This document shows, piece after piece, positions 21,812-54,023 of a DNA stretch of 64,000 bases. How positions within the stretch are numbered: position 1 is the first letter of the stretch; the number at the start of each line of letters is the position of its first letter. The position numbers and the translations under genes are program-made. This stretch comes from Bacteroidota bacterium (GTDB taxonomy: Bacteria > Bacteroidota > Bacteroidia > Bacteroidales > FEN-979): positions 60,649 through 124,648 of the forward strand of contig JAPLDF010000009.1 of the NCBI GenBank assembly GCA_026391835.1, written 5' to 3'. The notes below the pieces were generated by a model. That model saw only the letters and a program-made list of their open reading frames with translations, searched no databases and had not been told where the DNA came from.

Positions 21812-21816
21812 GATGA

Positions 21817-21864
21817 GTCACAAAGTCACAAAGTCACAGAGTCACAGAGTCACAGGGTCACAGA
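21817..21864 (+). repeat. Octanucleotide array, 6 units of GTCACARA/GTCACAGG (left arm of inverted pair)
   Basis: gtcacaaa gtcacaaa gtcacaga gtcacaga gtcacagg gtcacaga read directly; starts 6 nt after the response-regulator stop. Confidence 0.97.
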
Positions 21865-21911
21865 GTTGAGGATTGTTGATTTTTTTTTCATTTTTTGTAT
21901 TACCTTTTTAA

Positions 21912-21944
21912 ATATTCCGGATTAAGCATAAAAAAACGGAATAT
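21912..21944 (+). promoter_or_regulatory. Perfect 8-bp inverted repeat overlapping the start codon of the four-helix-bundle gene
   Basis: ATATTCCG (21912-21919) ... CGGAATAT (21937-21944), 17-nt loop; the right arm ends inside the ATG at 21943. Confidence 0.6.
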
Positions 21945-22297
21945 GAAAACACATAAGGAACTTGATCTATGGAAAGGCAGCATCGATTTTGTTGTTGAAA
22001 TGTACCAGCTGACGAAGGGTTTTCCCAGGGAGGAGATGTACGGAATAATAAGCCAGATCAGAAGAGCAGCGGTTTCAGTTGCTGCAAACATCAGCGAAGG
22101 AGCTGCGCGGGGTTATACCAGGGAATTTACCCGGTTTCTCAGAATAGCCCAGGGAAGTTTATCGGAAATTGAAAACACTGCTGTACCTGTCCTTAAAATT
22201 AGATTACCTGGATGAAGCGAGGTTTAAATCAATTGAGGGAAAAATATTTAAAATCAATGCCCAGCTCTCCGGCCTGATCAAAGCCATAAGCCCCTGA
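21943..22297 (+). pseudogene. Four-helix-bundle protein (S23 / 23S rRNA IVP family), apparent +1 frameshift near 22171-22175
   Basis: MKTHKELDLWKGSIDFVVEMYQLTKGFPREEMYGIISQIRRAAVSVAANISEGAARGYTREFTRFLRIAQGSLSEIE is family-typical. After GAAAA the frame gives an atypical short tail, whereas the shifted frame reads TLLYLSLKLDYLDEARFKSIEGKIFKINAQLSGLIKAISP* ending at 22297. Confidence 0.85.
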
Positions 22298-22322
22298 CCA
22301 GCTTTCCTTGCAATACAGCAAC

Positions 22323-22394
22323 TCTGTAGCTTTGTGACTCTGTGACTTTGTGACTTTGTGACTCTGTGACTCTGTGACTTTGTGACTCTGTGAC
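22323..22394 (-). repeat. Octanucleotide array, 9 units of T(T/C)TGTGAC (right arm, reverse complement of 21817-21864)
   Basis: tctgtagc tttgtgac tctgtgac tttgtgac tttgtgac tctgtgac tctgtgac tttgtgac tctgtgac read directly. Confidence 0.97.
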
Positions 22395-22486
22395 TTTTCC
22401 CTACCCCCAACCCAAGTCCTTTATCCGGTTGCGCATCCCTTTCTTCCTCTCTAATTTTGACTGGTCATTCATTAAAAACATATCCC

Positions 22487-25205: not shown

Positions 25206-25273
25206 GCAACCTGTTAACCTGTTACTTTGTGACCTTGTGACTTTGTGACTTTGTGACTCTGTGACTCTGTGAC
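25206..25273 (+). repeat. Octanucleotide array (TGACTTTG/TGACTCTG), degenerate at its 5' end
   Basis: gcaacctg ttaacctg ttactttg tgaccttg tgactttg tgactttg tgactctg tgactctg; starts 7 nt after the stop of the preceding gene; same unit and orientation as 22323-22394. Confidence 0.93.
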
Positions 25274-25303
25274 TTTACACCCCATTTAATAAACCCCTTC
25301 ACC

Positions 25304-26467: not shown

Positions 26468-26548
26468 TGACAAGTGACAAGTGACAAGTGACAAGTGACG
26501 GGTTGGCATACCGACACTTGTCATTTGTCATTTGTACTTTGTCACTTG
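26468..26548. terminator. Inverted pair of 7-mer arrays (TGACAAG)n ... (CTTGTCA/TTTGTCA) between two convergent genes; likely bidirectional terminator or hairpin
   Basis: tgacaag x4 + tgacggg immediately after TAA of 25304..26467; cacttgtcatttgtcatttgtactttgtcacttgt runs up to the stop of the convergent gene (stop at 26549-26551). Confidence 0.8.
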
Positions 26549-53905: not shown

Positions 53906-53911
53906 ATCTCC

Positions 53912-54023
53912 CGTCCGCCCGTCCGCCCGTCCGCCCGTCCGCCCGTCCGCCCGTCCGCCCGTCCGCCCGTCCGCCCGTCCGCCCGTCCGCCCGTCCGCCT
54001 GTCCGCCTGTCCGCCCGTCCGCC
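53912..54023 (+). repeat. Octanucleotide array, 14 units of (C/T)GTCCGCC
   Basis: 112 nt of cgtccgcc units, a few with initial T; follows the terminator. Confidence 0.96.

Follow-up and report, generated by a model that had tools for sequence, protein, structure and literature searches.

Inverted GTCACARA arrays bracket a frame-shifted 23S_rRNA_IVP gene in a Bacteroidota genome

Intervening sequences (IVSs) of 23S rRNA genes that carry an S23p/IVP open reading frame (ORF) and terminal repeats are known from Leptospira and Coxiella, the Coxiella IVS measuring 428 nt (PMC4990558). Their mobility has long been suspected (Ralph and McClelland 1993, as cited in PMC4990558). Tandem heptamer arrays have been described separately, as TAACTGA in the Beggiatoaceae (PMC4679880) and as GGGAATC in Xanthomonas and Nostoc, the Xanthomonas arrays often occurring in convergent pairs (70 and 75 cases; PMC4692102). 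A term search found neither S23 nor four-helix terms in PMC4679880 or PMC4692102. In the open-licence literature searched, we found no description of IVS terminal stems as tandem 7–9-mer arrays with a subfamily-cognate unit, and no prior link between S23/IVP and short-unit arrays, which a term search can miss.

The window, which is the whole stretch of 64,000 nt analysed here, contains an element of about 0.6 kb in which inverted GTCACARA arrays bracket a frame-shifted 23S_rRNA_IVP gene (PF05635). Its parts, in window coordinates, are as follows:

21812..22405 (approximate ends), + strand: the whole element, consisting of array, leader, IVP gene and inverted array
21817..21864, + strand: 5′ arm, six octamers GTCACARA (one GTCACAGG)
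21897..21927, + strand: conserved leader, promoter-like, with GTATTACCTTTTT (21897–21909) and GATTAAGC (21920–21927)
21943..22297, + strand: IVP / four-helix-bundle gene (PF05635, TIGR02436), frame-shifted near 22171–22177
about 22322..22394, − strand: 3′ arm, nine inverted octamers, TYTGTGAC on the + strand, the first degenerate

An earlier sequence-only reading had described six GTCACARA units, an IVP ORF and nine units of the exact reverse complement. This layout was confirmed, with five of the six 5′ units exact and the other reading GTCACAGG; the exactness claimed for the 3′ units holds for eight of the nine (TYTGTGAC) and fails for the degenerate first one, CTCTGTAG. The 5′ arm begins 5 nt past the stop codon of an upstream LuxR-type response regulator gene, and the other neighbour is a Por_Secre_tail gene. 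The element is intergenic, as had been proposed, and lies outside any 23S rRNA gene. GTCACARA was matched 19 times in the window compared with 4.5 expected, and none of 100 shuffles reached this count. Over 56 nt the arms show 89% complementarity, and as single-stranded DNA the element folds much more stably than shuffles do (z −7.0), in agreement with the potential long stem suggested previously. The leader is a putative promoter, judging by its sequence. Although GATTAAG was enriched in the leaders of IVP genes (33 of 123, versus 3 of 300 other ORFs), just these 33 leaders contained it, and it was rejected as the conserved leader.

The window ORF matched PF05635 with 96.6 bits (cut-off 33.8), which identifies it as the S23/IVP-type four-helix-bundle ORF that had been recognized from the letters, and it also matched TIGR02436, "four helix bundle protein". 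Frame 1 spans 21943–22215, and the conserved IVP continuation, TLLYLSLKLDYL..., runs in a second frame from 22175 to a stop at 22295–22297. Probably, either this copy is inactive or the assembly contains an error; stop codons also break some IVP genes of related genomes. IVP is the sole gene within the element, the Pfam search giving 23S_rRNA_IVP alone and no transposase or recombinase, and no reverse transcriptase was present among the seven neighbouring window proteins tested. The crystal structures of IVP relatives (2GSC and 2RLD) have five chains in each. Two IVP proteins matched the Avd model weakly (26–28 bits compared with a cut-off of 80), and the window's own protein showed no Avd match at E 0.001.

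How does this locus compare with the described systems? Like a 23S IVS, the window element has a PF05635 protein, a similar size and terminal inverted repeats; unlike one, it is intergenic, has its own promoter-like leader and belongs to a multicopy, dispersed family. Like the known heptamer arrays, including the cyanobacterial STRRs, its arrays are dispersed, intergenic and made of short units, and cyanobacterial IVP elements have STRR-like heptamers as arms. Similarly to MITEs and REPIN/RAYT systems, IVP elements are small and intergenic, with inverted ends and with non-autonomous derivatives that outnumber the gene-bearing copies, but they carry no Y1 or DDE transposase, their ends are arrays of variable unit, and no target duplication was seen. 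The window element further differs from a MITE in having a coding gene (IVP), gene-less relatives also existing, and from REPIN/RAYT in that its arms are tandem arrays rather than single GTAG/CGTC-tagged palindromes and in that a Y1 (IS200-like) transposase gene is absent. As in insertion sequences and DNA transposons, terminal inverted repeats end the unit (the Azospirillum boundaries and the G015 copies described below); on the other hand, no transposase or recombinase is encoded, and no target-site duplication was found. IVP resembles the Avd of diversity-generating retroelements in being a four-helix-bundle protein, whereas the seven window neighbours tested include no reverse transcriptase and the IVP proteins tested fall below the Avd cut-off.

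Twelve PF05635 genes are present in the window's genome, about ten of them with inverted arrays of 7- or 8-nt units, and related genomes contain up to 22 IVP genes each. The arm unit varies locus by locus in the window's genome and includes GTCACARA, GGTRAACR, GCGGACAN and ATTTGAAA, as well as TTTACGA, GATTTCG, AATATCG and others. We evaluated 119 IVP loci from 41 related genomes, defining a flank match as a score of 16 or more. Inverted flank arrays of 7–9 nt were found at 90 of the 119 genes, compared with direct-orientation matches at 11 of 119, these locus counts including related copies and hence events that are not independent. Control ORFs, which were drawn from the same array-rich neighbourhoods, showed an inverted match in 5 of 95 cases. 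Among 100 armed elements, the period was 7 in 60, 8 in 30 and 9 in 6, and the 5′ arm was G-rich on the gene strand in 85 versus 8.

A similar picture was obtained from 80 loci of other groups (Clostridia, Planctomycetota, Acidobacteriota, Proteobacteria, Cyanobacteria, Fibrobacteres, candidate phyla and more), collected by a search whose first stage favours conserved IVP proteins. Matches were inverted in 43 of 75 cases and direct in 9 of 75, with 1 of 75 for control ORFs, and the G-rich polarity of the 5′ arm held as well (38 versus 5). Inverted arrays were thus found at other S23/IVP genes both in relatives and across phyla, as would be expected if the sequence-only reading is correct. About 40% of the cross-phylum genes were armless at the score used. 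Plasmid copies (n = 16, mostly cyanobacterial) had arms in most cases, and some lay within cas, cmr and transfer operons, in the gaps between genes. A search of a phage collection gave no match. No clear rule of orientation relative to the neighbouring genes was found, only a weak sense bias. An AGT core of the unit was considered as a general rule and rejected, as it occurred in 23 of 32 cases versus 7.1 across phyla but in 13 of 71 versus 13.4 in relatives.

Several individual loci are described here in their own right. In Anabaena sp. 90 (L259), an IVP element lies between cas6 and cas4, within a CRISPR-Cas operon and co-directional with cas, and in Picosynechococcus PCC 7003 (L264) one lies co-directionally between cmr2 and cmr3, again within a CRISPR-Cas operon. 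An array-free IVP gene occupies one orthologous place in several species (G000_C63, G003_C51, G013_C84 and G020_C23), where it may have a host function. Furthermore, PDDEXK_3/GxxExxY genes (PF13366; L273–L302, e.g., L275, L282 and L280) often have arrays too (inverted in 13 of 28, direct in 10 of 28), with a looser flank unit of 9–11 nt of the CACAGAG or CACGAAG type. Consequently, IVP may not be alone in having array flanks, and there may be a second gene family bracketed by arrays.

Could the gene and its arms be a single unit? In 160 of 162 comparisons, the two arms of an element matched each other better than they matched the arms of another element of the same genome and period. At unrelated sites, the units were alike in 76% of pairs when the IVP proteins were more than 65% identical and in 1% when they were less than 45% identical. 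Mapped onto a tree of 95 IVP proteins, the repeat period required 13 changes compared with 30.8 after shuffling, and none of 200 shuffles was as low. Moreover, two copies in G015 are 88% identical over the arms and gene, and their flanks are unrelated from the array ends outward. These results indicate that the type of unit stays with the protein subfamily and, since similar proteins share a unit at unrelated sites and the arms match within each element, that the gene and arms travel as one piece, as far as can be judged by comparing sequences. In one orthologous element, both arms differ between branches, having changed from the TTTACGA to the GTGACAA type in one branch as if replaced together (G000_C72, G001_C80, G013_C174, G012_C34 and G007_C166 compared with G003_C26 and G014_C47).

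We then compared orthologous sites with and without the element. The regulator next to the window element has orthologues about 90% identical in sister species. In G001, G009 and G017, the element is absent, the stop codon of the regulator almost abuts the promoter region of the next gene, and there is no array. G018 has a GGGTAACA array without the gene, and G013 has a remnant of a different IVP element in the opposite orientation, with a recognizable leader. Empty sites therefore exist for the window element in close relatives, and arrays are not fixed at this place independently of the gene, three genomes being array-free, one having another array and one another remnant. The junction of nuoJ and nuoK varies across the genus in the same manner, from full elements through gene remnants and short array scars to clean sites. 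It is used by two kinds of cassette, an IVP element in sister species and, in G013, a PDDEXK_3/GxxExxY gene beside CGCAGAG-type arrays (L300; G013:C218:12658-13005). In the near-identical pair G006/G011, one genome has just 12 nt, AATGGACAATGG, or about 1.7 units, where the other has an element; these 12 nt could be either a scar or a target. At a second site, a small gene-less hairpin stands in place of an element. Taken at the level of such comparisons, the gene and both arms behave as a discrete unit that is present or absent per site and occurs at many unrelated sites.

The clearest boundaries were found in Azospirillum lipoferum 4B. The 23S rRNA gene of its plasmid AZO_p2 (Rfam LSU_rRNA_bacteria, 792–3990 of L272) contains an IVP element with heptamer arms of the GGACRGA/TGACAGA type, whereas the 23S gene of AZO_p3 has no element and is identical to that of AZO_p2 over left and right flanks of 443 and 585 nt, respectively. 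The insert comprises 473 nt in place of a 19-nt hairpin tip, GTGTGATCTTCGATCACGC, and its boundaries coincide with the arm ends to the nucleotide (ATTCAGAGGACGG ... CCGTCTTCTGAGT). This is a 19-nt target deletion with no duplication, and a target-site duplication was found at none of the three kinds of empty site (the regulator site, G006/G011 and Azospirillum). As the Azospirillum 23S IVS and the intergenic elements share heptamer-array arms, this insert ties the classical 23S IVS to the intergenic elements and shows them to be, by all appearances, the same kind of element.

Arrays also occur without a gene. Three were found in the window:

25208..25274, − strand: solitary GTCACARA array between two Lcl_C-domain genes, with no gene inside and no inverted mate
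26468..26499, + strand: solitary heptamer array (GTGACAA)n, matching IVP arms of sister species
53910..54023, + strand: solitary octamer array (GTCCGCCY)n of about 14 units, matching IVP arms of the same genome

The first of these resembles the arms of IVP elements of its own genome, and the third shares its unit with the arrays around the IVP gene on contig C82. In 400 kb sampled without bias from the window's genome, arrays occurred at periods 7–9 and at the multiples 14–15, with none at periods 4–6 or 10–13; a Markov control of this sample contained no arrays. In the sample, 30 of 32 arrays were one-armed. Likeness to an IVP arm was seen for 38% of arrays with respect to the same genome (control 1%) and for 69% with respect to relatives (control 8%). 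In small samples, the density of period 7–9 arrays was 95 per Mb in the window's genome and 30–67 per Mb in other IVP-bearing genomes, and no period-7 or period-8 array was found in 297 kb from genomes that belong to the same order but lack IVP (G030, G031, G032 and G039, plus small G038 fragments). Because of the likeness to arms and the lack of arrays in IVP-less genomes, many of the solitary 7–8-nt arrays in IVP-bearing genomes are best read as putative derivatives of IVP elements. Nevertheless, solitary arrays may also arise in other ways, as they are far more numerous than IVP genes. One nearly perfect array of about 20 GTCACAAA units has no gene (L025; G000:C8:12235-12387), and about 1.5 kb from it lies a period-9 array (AATGCAGGC-like) that resembles the period-9 IVP arms of G005 and G015.

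Taken together, the window feature is probably a small mobile DNA element with inverted arrays of 7–9-nt units as its ends and an IVP/S23-type four-helix-bundle gene alone inside. The small mobile cassette proposed by the sequence-only reading is thereby supported by the empty sites, the G015 duplicates and the arm-end boundaries in Azospirillum; the locus-specific unit that follows the protein subfamily, the occurrence in many phyla and the broken state of the window copy had escaped it. Against mobility, we counted that no enzyme is encoded, that movement is deduced from sequence comparison, that no target-site duplication was found and that some IVP genes are armless.

An alternative, which we consider unlikely, is that the complementarity of the arms is kept by pairing in the transcript, RNase III cutting the insert out of the host mRNA or rRNA. 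RNase III does cut the terminal stems of classical IVSs (PMC4990558), the Azospirillum copy sits in a 23S gene, and 49 of the 107 elements with both neighbours assigned lie between co-directional genes, including those of cas, cmr and nuo operons. However, the arm mismatches showed no G-U-compatible bias (194 versus 230), and 25 elements lie antisense between co-directional genes. In the studied genus, moreover, the promoter-like leader is located between the 5′ arm and the gene, so that transcription of the gene from there would start beyond the 5′ arm.

It is far less probable still that the arrays are sites through which IVP regulates itself or its neighbours and that the cassette is resident rather than mobile. 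A protein and its binding site would be expected to track each other, as the subfamilies and units do, and the genome also contains solitary arrays of these families at other places, but the strict inversion on both sides (90 versus 11), the presence and absence at orthologous sites, the recent copies with unrelated flanks, the broken genes in the window and elsewhere, and the arm-end boundaries in 23S rDNA would all be left unexplained. Finally, although slippage can expand short tandem repeats anywhere and at least one contig terminates within an array (G015_C393), an origin of the arrays as simple repeats that happened to expand next to an unrelated gene, or as an assembly artefact, can be dismissed almost completely, as arrays are confined to periods 7–9 and their multiples, adjoin IVP genes on complete plasmids and in other phyla, and are rare at control genes; a chance origin of the association between arrays and IVP is refuted.

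How, then, might a mobile IVP element move? We propose that IVP proteins would recognize their cognate arms, in the form of DNA or of a folded strand, and would promote copying or insertion. Because the element encodes no enzyme, a partner would be needed in trans; candidates are a polymerase, nuclease or reverse transcriptase of the host or of another element. The role of IVP would be comparable to that of the related Avd, which aids the reverse transcriptase in diversity-generating retroelements. As elements decayed, losing either the gene or an arm, they would leave many scattered, one-armed arrays, and classical 23S IVSs would be elements of the same kind at places where RNase III removes the transcript. 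That the arms match exactly within an element would fit homogenisation at the DNA level, for example by template switching between inverted repeats, a process established for quasi-palindromes.

We also put forward a broader proposal, tentatively, as we judge it slightly less likely to be right than wrong. IVP cassettes might be bacteria-wide mobile DNA without a catalytic enzyme of its own, in which short-unit arrays are acted on by a four-helix-bundle protein that co-evolves with them, which inserts at or replaces hairpins, and which is the source of most unexplained heptamer and octamer arrays (cyanobacterial STRRs, Xanthomonas GGGAATC and TAACTGA) and of 23S rRNA intervening sequences.

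What appears to be new here is that IVS-like elements also occur apart from rRNA, in many phyla, and end in tandem arrays with a unit particular to the protein subfamily. This joins three things that had been separate, namely rRNA IVSs, the abundant "four helix bundle / S23" family of unknown function and dispersed heptamer arrays, and IVP elements look like widespread, overlooked mobile DNA. The old question of IVS mobility can now be tested in named strains such as Azospirillum lipoferum 4B, in which one cell holds both occupied and empty 23S genes. The predicted pairs of protein and DNA unit, for example the IVP cognates of the GGTAACAG, GCGGACAN, CGTGACG and TTTACGA arms, can be assayed directly, and, as the element encodes no enzyme, the predicted mechanism of movement would be new.
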